Origin: Deltaproteobacteria bacterium
Lineage (GTDB): Bacteria > Desulfobacterota_B > Binatia > UBA9968
Assembly: GCA_016193385.1 (NCBI GenBank)
Contig: JACPSF010000225.1
Coordinates: 17,250-24,392, forward strand
Direction of reading: 5' to 3'
Length of the DNA stretch: 7,143 bases
In this document: one piece after another, positions 1 through 6,847 of the stretch
Numbering within the stretch: position 1 is the first letter of the stretch
Layout of the letters: every line of letters begins with the position of its first letter
Made by a program: the position numbers and the translations under genes
Notes under the pieces: generated by a model
Told to the model about the DNA's origin: nothing
Seen by the model: only the letters and a program-made list of their open reading frames with translations
Databases searched by the model: none

Positions 1-568
1 GATACTCAAGTTCGGCGCCGTTGGTCCGGGGACTGCGACTTATGACATCAGTAAGATCGTTGTGGCGACTGTGGGACTGTCCATTCAACTGGTTTCCGGC
101 TACAAAGGGACGGCGGAAATCCGACTCGCCTTCAACAGCGGTGAGGTTCAGGGGGTGACCAACGCCTGGGAGTCGTTCAAGGCGAGTTGGCCCACGGAGC
201 TTGCGTCCGGCGCTGTCGTGATTGTCCTGCAAGCCATCCCGCGCCGCCATCCTGAGCTGCCCAATGTGCCGCTGGTTATCGACTATGCCAAGACCGACGA
301 GGCGCGAAAACTCATCCAAACCGGCGTCCACGACTATGCGGCCGTCGCTCGTCCCTACGTTCTGCCTCCCGCTACGCCCAAAGAGCGCGCGCAACTGTTG
401 CGCAAGGCGTTGATGGATACCCTGAAGGATCCGGAGTTCCTGGCCGAAGCCAAGAAGTCCAAGCTGGACATTGAGCCGTTGAGCGGCGAAGAGCTGGAGA
501 GGATTGTGAGCCGGACCTTCAAGCTCGAACCCGAGTTGGTGGAAAAACTGAAGGAGATTCTGAAGTAA
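1..568 (+). CDS. Tripartite tricarboxylate transporter (TTT/Bug-type) substrate-binding protein, C-terminal part
   Basis: The reading frame is open from the left edge (first full codon at base 2) to a TAA at 566-568, giving about 188 residues. The 5' end and any signal peptide lie outside the window. A GTG at 62 is only an internal codon. The sequence fits the second half of a Bug/TctC-like periplasmic receptor: a small-residue run FGAVGPGTATYD, a GYKGTAEIRLAFNSGEV stretch where the family carries its Y(K/R)G...A...G-EV motif, then PRRHPELPNVPLV, matching the family's R....PDVPT segment, and a charged helical C-terminus. Family members bind small carboxylates or related solutes in the periplasm and pass them to TctA/TctB-type permeases. 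It is quite different from the TctC encoded at 2813-3822. It is convergent with the tct operon, so it is not part of that transcript. Family assignment is fairly confident; the substrate is unknown. Confidence 0.72.
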   Translation, partial: ILKFGAVGPGTATYDISKIVVATVGLSIQLVSGYKGTAEIRLAFNSGEVQGVTNAWESFKASWPTELASGAVVIVLQAIPRRHPELPNVPLVIDYAKTDEARKLIQTGVHDYAAVARPYVLPPATPKERAQLLRKALMDTLKDPEFLAEAKKSKLDIEPLSGEELERIVSRTFKLEPELVEKLKEILK

Positions 569-675: not shown

Positions 676-820
676 TATAGTGACGGAATTAAATAAGTTG
701 GCATCAAATCCCCACTCACCCCCCTAAATCCCCCTCGATCCCCCTTTACCAAAGGGGGAGAAAGGGGGATTTGAGAGGGGATGGGGGAATTATGGTAATT
801 TTCTTTTTTCCTTCACTATA
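676..820. repeat. 145-bp palindromic MITE-like element with TATAGTGA terminal inverted repeats
   Basis: The ends are exact 8-bp inverted repeats, TATAGTGA (676-683) and TCACTATA (813-820). Similarity continues inward: about 21 of the first 29 positions match between the two ends. The core is a strong hairpin: arm 726-747 pairs with arm 751-772 at 19 of 22 positions around a 3-nt ACC loop, flanked by further C-rich (709-725) and G-rich (773-787) arms. The whole element is thus one imperfect palindrome with no coding capacity. The TA at each outer edge would fit TA target duplication of IS630/mariner-type elements, but this is inference. CCCCCT/AGGGGG palindromes of this look are common interspersed repeats in environmental genomes. 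It ends 2 bp before the tctA stop codon and lies between convergent genes, where the hairpin could terminate transcription from both sides; on the plus strand it is followed by a T-rich stretch (799-809). Confidence 0.6.
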
Positions 821-2812: not shown

Positions 2813-3822
2813 TCATTGGCTGATCTTTGCTACTCTGGCCACCTCCGACCACTTTTTCTGTTCTTGGGCGAGGAATTTCGCTGCCTCCTCCGGGCCGCGA
2901 TTTTCTACGAACACCCCTGCTTTCTCGATCTTCCCCGTAATCTCTTTGTCCTGTAATGCCTCCTTAAAGGCCTTGGCTAGTTTATCTACGATGGGGGCTG
3001 GAGTATTTACGCGCACCAAAAAGATAAACCAGGGGCTCACATCGATCGATGGGTAGCCTTTCTCGACTACGGTAGGCACATCGGGAAATGCGTTCGCGCG
3101 CTTTTGAGCCGTCACCACCAGCGCTCTCAAGGTTCCAGCCTCAAGGTGAGCGCGGACCGTCCCCAGGGCTATGATGCTGGTATGGATATTGCCGCCTAGA
3201 ATCGCCGTGGCAACGGGCGCTTCCCCTCCCATGGGGACATGAATGAAATCAGTACCGGTCTCCATCTTGAACAGCTCCAACCCGAAGTGGCCGCTGGTTC
3301 CGGTGCCGGGAGTGCCGAAGGTGAGCTTGCCCGGGTTCTTTTTAGCATCTGCAATGAGCTGCTCCAGGCTCTGCCAGGGAGAATCCGCTTTCACCACCAT
3401 GACTGCGGGATTGCTCCCGGCGAAATTGATCGGGGTGAAATCGCTGACGGCGTAACCGATGCCCTTCCGCGCCAGCGGAATGAGGGCGAACGGCGGCGGG
3501 ACGATCAGGAGCGTGTAGCCGTCAGCGGGTGCGTCCTTGGCGGCTTTAATTCCCACGGCTCCGCCTCCGCCGGTCTTATTGACGACGACGACGGCTTGCC
3601 CCAACAGAGAAGATAGTTTGTCGCTGAGTATCCGTGCGACAAGGTCCGTGCTGGCGCCGGGAGGAAAGGGATTGATAATCTGAATTGTTTAAAGGGATTG
3701 ATAATCTGGATTGTTTTTGTCGGGTACTCCGCCCCATGGGCGACGGGGATGAAAAACGTGGCAACGAGAATCACCAACCCTAGTGCGGAAACGATCGAGT
3801 ATCTCTTGTAAAGTTGGGACAT
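2813..3822 (-). pseudogene. tctC: TctC/Bug periplasmic receptor of the tct operon, frameshifted by a 26-bp tandem duplication
   Basis: The ATG at 3822-3820 has a strong Shine-Dalgarno (AAGGAG at 3834-3829, 6 nt spacing) and starts a Sec signal peptide (MSQLYKRYSIVSALGLVILV, then ATFFIPVAHG with likely cleavage before AEYP), followed by the family's YPTKTIQIINPF strand. The frame then diverges into unrelated sequence and stops at 3505. The rest of the receptor (GQAVVVVNKTGGGGAVGIK, DGYTLL, FGTPGTGTSGHFG, FPDVPTVVEKGYP, C-terminus VARVAKISQ) is in another frame that is open from 3688 to the TGA at 2815-2813. Between them is a 26-bp tandem duplication (3665-3716). Deleting one copy restores ...INPF-PPGASTDLVARILSDKL... 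and an uninterrupted 327-residue protein, the normal TctC length. A TTG at 3604 would give only a leaderless fragment. As written no full-length exported receptor can be made. Possible reading: a real recent mutation, a phase-variable state, or an unmerged overlap in assembly. Confidence 0.85.
3665..3716. repeat. 26-bp tandem duplication inside tctC
   Basis: Two adjacent 26-bp copies, 3665-3690 and 3691-3716, differ at one base only (A at 3683, G at 3709). Because 26 is not a multiple of three, the second copy shifts the tctC frame, and the junction creates an in-frame TAA (minus strand, 3691-3689) in the downstream frame. Read in the ancestral frame, the single difference is synonymous (ATT versus ATC, both Ile before Gln). 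Confidence 0.95.
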
Positions 3823-4074: not shown

Positions 4075-5046
4075 GTGAATGGCATGTCTCTCGGTCGACT
4101 ATTGGTAGAGAAGTTCCAACCGGACCTGCTTGAGTGGCTCGGCTCCCGAGTGGAGATCGTGGTTGTAGATCCGTGGGTCGAGCCGGAACGCTGGGAGAGA
4201 GAAGTCTCACGGGTGGATGCCGTCATCAGCAGAAAAGGCAAGGTTACAAGGGAGCATATGGAGAAGAGTCGAGGCCGGCTCAAGATCGTGGCGCGAACCG
4301 GTGTTGGGGTGGATCCATCCAGAGTCGATCTTGACGCCGCTAAGGAGCATCGAGTGTGGGTGACGAACATGCCAGGGAGCAATTCGGTTTCAGTTGCCGA
4401 GCTGGTTTTCGGCCAGATGATAGCCTTGGTGCGCCACATCATAGAAGCCGACAGGGCCGTGAAAGAAAACCGTTGGGAGGACTATCTGCAATTCCTTGGA
4501 ACGGAGTTGGCAAACAAGACCATCGGCATCATCGGCATGGGGAACATAGGAACGAGGGTCGCGATAAGAGCCCGGGCGTTCGAGATGTCTTTCCTGGTTT
4601 ATGATCCTTATATTCCCGAATCTCATGTTACCGCTTTGGGAGGCCGGTGGGTCGGCCTAAACGATCTGCTCTCCGACTCTGACTTCGTGACCATCCACTG
4701 TCCCCTAACCCGCGAGACGAAACGAATGATCGGTGAAAAGCATCTCTCGCTTATGAAAACCTCGGCGTATCTGATTAATATGGCGCGCGGGGGAATCGTG
4801 GACGAAGACGCTCTTTATCGAGTCCTGAGCCAGAAGCGAATCGCGGGGGCCGCGCTGGACGTCATGGAAAACGAACCTCCAGGTAAGAATCACCCCTTAT
4901 TTCAACTCAACAACGCAATCTTCACGCCCCATCTGGGCGCAGTCACCAGGGAAGCCTCAAAACGGGCTGAGTGGGGTGCCGCCGAAGAGGTCGTTCGGGT
5001 CCTTGAGGGGAAGAGTCCTAAAAATCCCGTGGTCCAGTTAAAGTAG
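4075..5046 (+). CDS. NAD-dependent D-isomer-specific 2-hydroxyacid dehydrogenase (phosphoglycerate dehydrogenase-like)
   Basis: A soluble 323-residue enzyme of the D-2-hydroxyacid dehydrogenase family, interconverting a 2-hydroxyacid and a 2-oxoacid. The N-terminal part of the substrate domain (1-105) includes the typical KIVARTGVGVD (70-80) and VTNMPGSNSVSVAE (96-109). The Rossmann fold carries GMGNIG at 154-159, and Asp177 (VYDPY) at the end of strand beta2 indicates NAD rather than NADP. The catalytic set is complete: Arg238 in MARGGIVDE, Glu267 in DVMENEPP and His286 in TPHLG. There is no C-terminal ACT domain, unlike long biosynthetic SerA, so a catabolic or glyoxylate/hydroxypyruvate-type role is as likely as serine synthesis. 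The GTG at 4075 opens the longest frame; the ATG at 4084, 6 nt after a GGGTG, is an equally good start and gives a 320-residue protein. It is transcribed divergently from tctCBA, suggesting it may act on the imported carboxylate. The exact substrate is unknown. Confidence 0.92.
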   Translation: MNGMSLGRLLVEKFQPDLLEWLGSRVEIVVVDPWVEPERWEREVSRVDAVISRKGKVTREHMEKSRGRLKIVARTGVGVDPSRVDLDAAKEHRVWVTNMPGSNSVSVAELVFGQMIALVRHIIEADRAVKENRWEDYLQFLGTELANKTIGIIGMGNIGTRVAIRARAFEMSFLVYDPYIPESHVTALGGRWVGLNDLLSDSDFVTIHCPLTRETKRMIGEKHLSLMKTSAYLINMARGGIVDEDALYRVLSQKRIAGAALDVMENEPPGKNHPLFQLNNAIFTPHLGAVTREASKRAEWGAAEEVVRVLEGKSPKNPVVQLK

Positions 5047-5096: not shown

Positions 5097-5168
5097 AAGG
5101 GGTCTTTTGTTGTTTGTTGAGCGAAATTGAGGTGGATTCTGACAGATGGAGAGGGTCCTTGCGGGTTC

Positions 5169-6152
5169 ATGACCCGCTTCAAGCTTCAATTTCTGATCGT
5201 CATCTCTTGTGCGCTGCTCCTTCTGGGTCAGCGGGCGCCCGCGCAGGAAATGAAGCGCATCTACTACGGCACCACGGCCTCGCCTTCCCATCTCCCGGTA
5301 TGGGTCGCAAAAGATGCCGGATTCTTCGCCCGGCACGGTCTGAACGTCGAGCCGGTGCAGATTCGGGGCGGCTCGTTGATCACCTTGGCGATCATAACCG
5401 GCGATCTGCCCTTTTCCGGCGTGGGTGCGGAGTCGGTCGTGGCTGCGCGCGTGGCCGGAGGCGACGTGGTTTTACTCGCCTGTCCCGTTGACGCCGACCC
5501 CGTTTACTTGATCACGCGCCCTGAAATCAAATCCCCCATGGAACTTAAGGGCCAAGCAAGCGCCGTAACGCGCTACGGATCGACCACGCATTTCTATCTA
5601 CGGGCGGCGCTAAAACATGTCGGGCTCGACCCGGAACGAGATCTAACCGTCATGCAGTTGGGGGCCGGCCCGGAGATGGTGGCTGCGCTGGAAGTGGGAC
5701 GCATCCAGGCCGCGGCTCTCACGACTCGCTACGCGATTCCCTTTTTGCAACGGGGCTGGCCGGTGCTCGTCGACCTCAGCAAAACGGATCTGGTCTATCC
5801 TTCTTCGTGCGTCGCCAGCAGCCGGGCCTTTATCAGAGCGGAGCCGAAGACAGCCGAGGATTTTCTCAGGGCCTATGTCGCGGGTATTCACTTGATCAGA
5901 AAAGATCAAAACTTCGCTGAGAAATCCTTTTCCAAATGGCTGCGGGAAAAAGATCCTGCGATCGTCAAAAGGTCGGTTGCAGCCTACGCGGGCCTCTTCA
6001 AGCCGGCTCCCGTCGTGCCGGACAAGGGGATCGAAAATGTAGTGAGAGACTTGCTGAGGAGGCGCCCCGAGTTCAAAGAATATCTGGGCTGGCCGGAGCC
6101 GTTCCGTGAAAACGGACCGCTGGAAAGAGCTTTGCGAGATACGACGAAATAA
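5169..6152 (+). CDS. NMT1/SsuA-like ABC transporter substrate-binding protein
   Basis: A 327-residue periplasmic solute receptor with a Sec signal peptide: MTRFKLQ, hydrophobic residues 8-19, then QRAPA with cleavage expected after Ala25 (AxA rule). A VISC at 11-14 resembles a lipobox but lies inside the hydrophobic core, so lipidation is unlikely. The mature protein begins as the NMT1/TauA/SsuA group does: KRIYYGTTASPSHLPVWVAK (29-48), GFFARHGLNVE (51-61), IRGGSLITLAIITGDLPFSG (65-84), then EIKSPMELKGQASAV, GLDPERDLTVMQLG and ALEVGRIQAAALT, where the family binds sulfonates, taurine, pyrimidine precursors or nitriles. The ATG at 5169 was preferred over an in-frame TTG at 5127 because it places charged residues directly before the hydrophobic core; its Shine-Dalgarno is mediocre (GGAGAGGG 13 nt upstream). 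No ABC permease or ATPase gene adjoins it, so it is an orphan receptor in this window. Substrate unknown. Confidence 0.85.
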   Translation: MTRFKLQFLIVISCALLLLGQRAPAQEMKRIYYGTTASPSHLPVWVAKDAGFFARHGLNVEPVQIRGGSLITLAIITGDLPFSGVGAESVVAARVAGGDVVLLACPVDADPVYLITRPEIKSPMELKGQASAVTRYGSTTHFYLRAALKHVGLDPERDLTVMQLGAGPEMVAALEVGRIQAAALTTRYAIPFLQRGWPVLVDLSKTDLVYPSSCVASSRAFIRAEPKTAEDFLRAYVAGIHLIRKDQNFAEKSFSKWLREKDPAIVKRSVAAYAGLFKPAPVVPDKGIENVVRDLLRRRPEFKEYLGWPEPFRENGPLERALRDTTK

Positions 6153-6204: not shown

Positions 6205-6486
6205 ATGTCTATTTCGTCCAAGGATATCGTTCCTCTTACGCGGGCCAGGGCCAAGCTTGCGGAGCTCTGCGAAGAGGTCAAGAAGGAGCACGCGGAGAAA
6301 ATTCTCACCAAAAACGGGGAAAGCTGCGCCGCCCTCATTGACGCGGAGCGGCTCGATTACTACCACCGTCTGGAACGGGAACATATCCACCTCACGCTCC
6401 TCGATGAAGCCGAGCGCGGGGTCGAGGACGTGAACGCGGGGAGGGTTCTAACGGCGGCCAAACTCAAGGCCCGGTATGGCCGGTAG
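6205..6486 (+). CDS. Type II antitoxin, Phd/YefM family
   Basis: A 93-residue protein with the Phd/YefM plan. The N-terminal DNA-binding part runs IVPLTRARAKLAELCEEVKK (8-27) and then ILTKNGESCAALIDAERLD (33-51), matching the family's 'S.AR..L..L...V' helix and '(I/V)TKNG.P.A.L(I/V)...E' strand-turn. The C-terminal part (about 55-93), rich in charged residues, would be the flexible arm that wraps and neutralises the toxin. Such antitoxins act in the cytoplasm and, alone or with the toxin, repress their own operon. The downstream gene overlaps by 11 nt, giving coupled translation with the antitoxin made first. The start ATG is set by a good Shine-Dalgarno. The exact subfamily is not certain, but the pairing with a RelE/ParE toxin supports the call. 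Confidence 0.85.
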   Translation: MSISSKDIVPLTRARAKLAELCEEVKKEHAEKILTKNGESCAALIDAERLDYYHRLEREHIHLTLLDEAERGVEDVNAGRVLTAAKLKARYGR

Positions 6487-6847
6487 GATCAGGCCACTTT
6501 TTACCGAGAATTTTGCCGTCAATTTAGACTCCGTCCGCTTGTTCTTGGAACCCGAGGGTCAAGCTGCCTTTCGGCGGCTTTTAGGTCGCCTCTTCGACGA
6601 CATCGTTCCCACTCTGTGCCGTTTTCCGCAATCGGGTCGTGCGGTGCCGGCTCGTGCTGTTCGTTCTCTAGAAGCTCAGGTATTGGTGAACCGTCTTAAT
6701 GCCGCGCTTCGCAAAGGAGATGATCTCCGGGAGTTTGTTGTGGATGACTACGTCATCCTCTATCTGGTCAGGCGCAACCGGCTCTACTTTCTGGCCGTCA
6801 AGCATCACCGACAACTGTCGTTTGATCTCCGGCGATTTTGGCCGTAA
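6476..6847 (+). CDS. Type II toxin, RelE/ParE family
   Basis: A 123-residue basic protein of the RelE/ParE fold: FTENFAVNLDSVRLFLEPEG (9-28) forms the first strand and helix, followed by LLGRLFDDIVPTLCRFPQSG (35-54) with the common FP-xx-GR motif (50-55), then the core strands LREFVVDDYVILYLVRRN (84-101) and LYFLAVKHHRQLSFDL (103-118). ParE members poison DNA gyrase and RelE members cut ribosome-bound mRNA; this sequence alone does not decide between them. The KHHRQLSFDL ending belongs to a recognisable subgroup paired with Phd/YefM-like antitoxins. The first ATG (6476) lies inside the antitoxin gene (11-nt overlap), with AAGG at 6466-6469 and 6 nt spacing. It appears intact and in full length, somewhat longer than the typical 90-100 residues owing to an insert at about 56-83. 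Confidence 0.85.
   Translation: MAGRIRPLFTENFAVNLDSVRLFLEPEGQAAFRRLLGRLFDDIVPTLCRFPQSGRAVPARAVRSLEAQVLVNRLNAALRKGDDLREFVVDDYVILYLVRRNRLYFLAVKHHRQLSFDLRRFWP

Follow-up and report, generated by a model that had tools for sequence, protein, structure and literature searches.

A 26-bp tandem duplication splits a tctC receptor gene in a Binatia contig: an assembly join or a loss-of-function mutation

In Bacillus subtilis 168, the product of gudB (gudBCR) is inactivated by a short perfect direct repeat of 9-bp units, while the gene is functional in closely related strains, and the repeat constitutes a mutational hot spot (PMC3681913). In the capsule genes of pneumococcus, spontaneous sequence duplication switches the capsule off in a reversible manner (Waite et al., 2001, 2003, cited in PMC4243769). 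Receptors of the Bug family, which serve the tripartite tricarboxylate transporter TctCBA, carry between the first strand and helix the motif P-F-X-A-G-G-X-X-D, an almost ubiquitous signature of the ligand loop that coordinates the carboxylate (PMC5812351). Local errors have been described in metagenome assemblies, among them flanks left in duplicate where pieces are joined and local repeats given in the wrong number, and 13 local errors have been reported in a single 1.13-Mb genome (PMC7111523).

Here, we describe a stretch of 7,143 nucleotides (hereafter, the window) in which a tctC gene is broken by a 26-bp tandem duplication. The gudB repeat is 9 bp long, perfect and in frame, duplicating three residues, whereas that of tctC is 26 bp long, imperfect and frame-breaking (PMC3681913 for gudB); the pneumococcal duplications come from cultured strains (PMC4243769), whereas that of tctC comes from one contig. 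If real, it is by analogy of the kind known from gudB and the pneumococcal capsule genes. We take the duplication to be one of two things, a join made during assembly or an ordinary mutation that cost the gene its function.

The tctCBA locus and its split receptor gene

The features of the window are collected in Table 1. The gene order tctC-tctB-tctA and the three Pfam families are common to the window and to described TctCBA systems, and a loop of the PF..G..D type after the first strand, described as the signature of the family, is also found in the window (PMC5812351). Matches to PF03401, PF07331, and PF01970 all lie above the family cut-off in adjacent genes on one strand, as in a tctCBA operon, and both open reading frames and Pfam matches bear out the claim of the initial annotation that tctA and tctB are intact. 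Unlike the usual TctCBA, tctC is split over two frames.

Table 1. Features of the window (positions counted from its first nucleotide).
Feature	Position	Strand	Remark
3′ end of distant TctC-like receptor gene	2..568	+	PF03401 7.3e-4 (below family cut-off); cut by window edge
Inverted repeat	707..791		intergenic; C-rich/G-rich runs; 41-nt arms, 73% complementary, 3 nt between
tctA, intact, 502 aa	823..2331	-	Pfam TctA PF01970 1.2e-168
tctB, intact, 149 aa	2338..2787	-	Pfam TctB PF07331 5.6e-22
C-terminal ORF of broken tctC, 263 aa from TTG	2813..3604	-	Pfam TctC PF03401 3.1e-60
N-terminal ORF of broken tctC, 105 aa	3505..3822	-	signal-peptide-like start, TctC up to NPF, out-of-frame tail
Unit copy B	3665..3690	-	1 base differs from copy A; homology of N-terminal frame ends here
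TAA in C-terminal frame	3689..3691	-	made by copy A/copy B junction (sequence)
Unit copy A (first in gene direction)	3691..3716	-	encodes T-I-Q-I-I-N-P-F, N-terminal frame
D-2-hydroxyacid dehydrogenase	4075..5046	+	divergent from tctCBA
NMT1-like substrate-binding protein	5127..6152	+	divergent from tctCBA
Phd/YefM-type antitoxin	6205..6486	+	PF02604 8.8e-9; overlaps toxin gene
ParE-type toxin	6476..6847	+	PF05016 1e-6

The initial annotation had reported a 26-bp tandem duplication within tctC, and this was confirmed both by a repeat search, in which the two adjoining copies agree at 25 of 26 bases, and by Tandem Repeats Finder (3665-3716, period 26, 2.0 copies, 96% match, score 97). No longer array of the unit exists at the site, which holds two units only. 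A 13-bp sub-period also returned by Tandem Repeats Finder (62% match) is a weak internal resemblance that fails to account for the 26-bp copy. Near-perfect tandem units of 15-80 bp were then counted over 62 sequences (L001-L061 plus the window; 448,424 bases in all, with overlap between some loci), which gave 15 rows, in the window and four other loci (L006, L009, L029, and L039). The periods were all multiples of 3, the exceptions being that of the window and a single row of 25 bp within the L029 array. Because such units are this few in the scan, the repeat of the window is not a matter of chance, and it is unusual as well as frame-breaking.

The reading frame that begins at the start codon (3822) enters copy B out of register and continues through sequence unlike the family until its stop at 3505, placing the frame break between NPF and PPGASTD. 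The signal peptide (judged by eye) and NPF thus lie in one frame and PPG..D in another, and no continuous TctC with both export signal and domain-1 ligand loop is encoded. The N-terminal ORF alone has no Pfam match, and the C-terminal ORF has neither a signal peptide nor the PPG..D portion of the ligand loop; the latter piece (protein 2816-3604) sits in the protein collection as its own entry, P0001, with 2 member sequences and a longest listed contig of 24,392 bases. No cause of the break other than the 26-bp duplication is visible, as had been claimed; the open reading frames break at the repeat, and both pieces, compared separately, match intact relatives. The closest relative of the C-terminal piece is P0002 (89%, among the matches listed, the best 120 of 2351), the top match of the N-terminal piece among short proteins is P0121 (93%), and the N-terminal sequence is identical in P0121 and P0002. 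Because P0002 matches the one piece and P0121, with its P0002-like N-terminus, matches the other, both sides of the join belong to one gene. A chimeric join of unrelated organisms is ruled out, both sides being the same gene and syntenic with the two closest loci, L001 and L002.

As for the surroundings, a hydroxy acid may be the substrate of the tctCBA operon, judging from the two divergent neighbor genes. The inverted repeat sits between the end of the TctC-like ORF and tctA, and its core pattern occurred in 0 of 68 other loci searched. The overlapping antitoxin and toxin genes (6205-6847) are likely to form a type II toxin-antitoxin module, as their domain matches suggest. A plasmid search of the window returned a single match of 95 bases, in Variovorax.

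The repeat site in relatives and the age of the break

A genome scan yielded 41 loci, the closest of which, L001 and L002, belong to groundwater MAGs titled Deltaproteobacteria bacterium. The window is syntenic with both over about 3.07 kb, at DNA identities of 84.2% and 82.9%, respectively, with the match ending about 70 bases upstream of tctC, and the global alignment to each opens a single gap at the repeat, exactly 26 bases long. When L001-L005 are aligned together, every one of them has one unit. The order to which the genome of L001 belongs was searched over 35 genomes; 10 of them yielded 12 matches at E ≤ 1e-70, all of which lie in open frames (324-369 codons, no internal stop) and have the unit once at the site. 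As L001-L004 are common to both sets, these amount to 13 distinct loci, and in this comparison with tctC of close relatives, all 13 carry one unit; of the 41 scan loci, it took in L001-L005, the other 36 having 40% identity or less. At the protein level, the NPF-PPG type motif occurs once in 114 of 122 related proteins (the best 120 of 2351 matches plus two from the short-protein search), twice in none, and is absent from eight, namely the window's own fragment, the full-length P0021 with a variant motif, and six that start downstream of the site. Hence, no duplication shared by a lineage was found in the 13 loci and 122 proteins examined. TctC-type matches at E ≤ 1e-20 number 7, 7, and 6 in G001, G002, and G003, none with an internal stop, and 6 of these 20 places were looked at for unit number. 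The junction pattern was not found in the viral contigs searched, and among the papers listed by literature searches, which were directed at this question only in part, no report of tandem duplication in tctC came up.

The single mismatch between the copies is synonymous in the old frame (Ile ATC/ATT), as had been claimed; among L001-L005, three have T and two have C at this third position. Within the 24 in-frame bases of the unit, 15 of the 72 possible substitutions and 8 of the 24 transitions are synonymous. Microhomology at the borders of the duplication is zero, position 3664 differing from 3690 and 3717 from 3691. Where slippage occurs between short direct repeats, some microhomology usually remains, whereas an overlap between contigs would leave none.

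Over the C-terminal 263 codons, dN/dS is 0.102 against L001 and 0.101 against L002, in between the values of tctA (0.074 and 0.079) and tctB (0.189 and 0.189). Changes private to the window in this piece comprise 29.5 synonymous and 8.5 non-synonymous; the intact relatives fare no better, at 33.5 to 11.5 and at 29.5 to 14.5. The piece contains no stop or further frame break, where 71 of the 2367 possible single substitutions (about 3%) would yield a stop. Because its codons show no decay, tctC was functional until recently, or still is. An old pseudogene is ruled out by the dN/dS of 0.10 together with the lack of any further lesion, both counted on the C-terminal piece.

Explanations for the extra unit

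The explanation that we consider best, and to which we give slightly better than an even chance, is that the extra unit is an assembly artefact, in which two strain haplotypes were left unmerged. Two strains present together would have supplied contig ends that share 26 bp but for one synonymous difference, and these ends would have been joined one after the other without merging; living cells would have a single unit and a functional TctC receptor. We infer here both a metagenome-assembly origin of the window and the artificial join within it. Unmerged haplotypes are slightly favored because the mismatch is synonymous, the C-terminal codons are undecayed, and the borders show no microhomology. 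The synonymous T/C difference counts in this direction because L001-L005 vary between the same two bases, as strains might, and so does the single unit in every distinct locus examined. The copies therefore differ in a strain-like manner between flanks that belong to one locus, which is consistent with an artefact but does not prove it. The initial annotation had named an unmerged overlap as a serious alternative, and we agree: both the mismatch, being synonymous, and the sharp borders are slightly better accounted for in this way.

Local errors described for metagenome scaffolds resemble the window in that overlapping flanks remain as duplicates and local repeat numbers are wrong; however, the flank duplicates described there carry inserted Ns, whereas the join in the window has none (PMC7111523). 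The artefact is weakened by this lack of Ns, and also because the mismatch makes the overlap something other than an exact k-mer. It is further weakened because neither identity nor GC changes in a step at the join, identity to L001 and L002 showing nothing beyond the rise from promoter to gene and GC remaining steady along the window (0.51-0.60), and because the join is well within the interior of the contig, flanked in the window by about 3.4 kb to the left and to the right. The related MAG loci scanned contained no further short duplication that breaks a frame in this way, so that a frequent assembler error in such loci is unlikely. The artefact reading would not survive if the second member of P0001 came from a separate assembly that had this break as well. 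Our weighing of artefact against true duplication is a judgement and not a computation.

A real and recent 26-bp tandem duplication, arising by template switch or end joining during replication or repair and inactivating tctC, is a tentative second explanation that we place somewhat below an even chance. It accords with the clean two-copy structure without Ns, and the otherwise undecayed C-terminal piece would make the event young; similar events are documented in gudB (PMC3681913) and in the pneumococcal capsule genes (PMC4243769). The loss of one receptor may also be tolerated, given the several TctC-type receptors per genome (7, 7, and 6). However, fresh copies should be identical, and the mismatch calls for one more change in these 52 bp, by chance a synonymous one, in a gene that otherwise shows no decay; moreover, the borders lack microhomology and the duplication was seen in 0 of the 13 distinct loci. 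If the duplication is real, translation from 3822 would give an exported stub of 105 residues, and the C-terminal piece could be started only at internal codons (e.g., the TTG at 3604) and would stay in the cytoplasm if translated. The receptor would be inactive, the C-terminal piece having neither signal peptide nor ligand loop, while TctB and TctA could still be made, perhaps in lower amounts due to polarity, and might serve other Bug receptors. For such sharing of TctB and TctA there is as yet no evidence, according to a review of the family (PMC5812351). Reversion is a property of gudB (PMC3681913) and for the 26-bp unit of tctC only a possibility, in that loss of one unit could restore the frame, as in gudB and the capsule genes, with nothing that would maintain a switch.

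The initial annotation had gone further and proposed an on/off switch of carboxylate uptake, for which we find no support, since the repeat is in 0 of 13 loci and there is neither an array nor microhomology. A maintained phase-variable switch, in which slipped-strand gain and loss of the unit toggles TctC, could draw on the unit length of 26 bp, which is not divisible by 3, each unit gained or lost therefore shifting the frame as expected of a contingency gene, and on the ability of tandem repeats to lose a unit. We nevertheless regard it as very unlikely: there are only two units, and these differ at one base; relatives of a switching locus should vary in unit number, and all 13 loci have one; the 12 places of the order-level search lie in open frames without internal stops; and the doubled motif is in 0 of 122 related proteins. 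A periplasmic receptor is not known as a usual target of phase variation.

A recoding event, in which the ribosome shifts by -1 past the junction to give a full-length receptor with a nine-residue insertion, can be rejected as scarcely credible, for although the C-terminal frame is indeed the -1 frame as counted from the start, and stays open between the junction and 2813, a TAA stands in this target frame exactly at the junction (3691-3689). Canonical -1 sites need the phase X-XXY-YYZ, and the TTTAAAC at the junction is out of this phase (by eye); the copy pair is also in none of the relatives examined.

Implications for the Bug/TctC family

The locus calls for caution in two respects. One extra copy of a 26-bp unit is enough to split a conserved receptor, and the resulting 263-aa piece then stands in a protein collection as a protein in its own right; and a switch deduced from one contig can be an assembly join. 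That a two-allele 26-bp polymorphism toggles carboxylate uptake in this uncultured bacterium, whose relatives are named Deltaproteobacteria or Candidatus Binatia, seems highly improbable to us. If it were true, with both alleles in one population, the toggling unit would adjoin the ligand-loop codons of a Bug/TctC receptor, and tandem duplication would, unusually, be switching a nutrient receptor in this bacterium and not a surface antigen.
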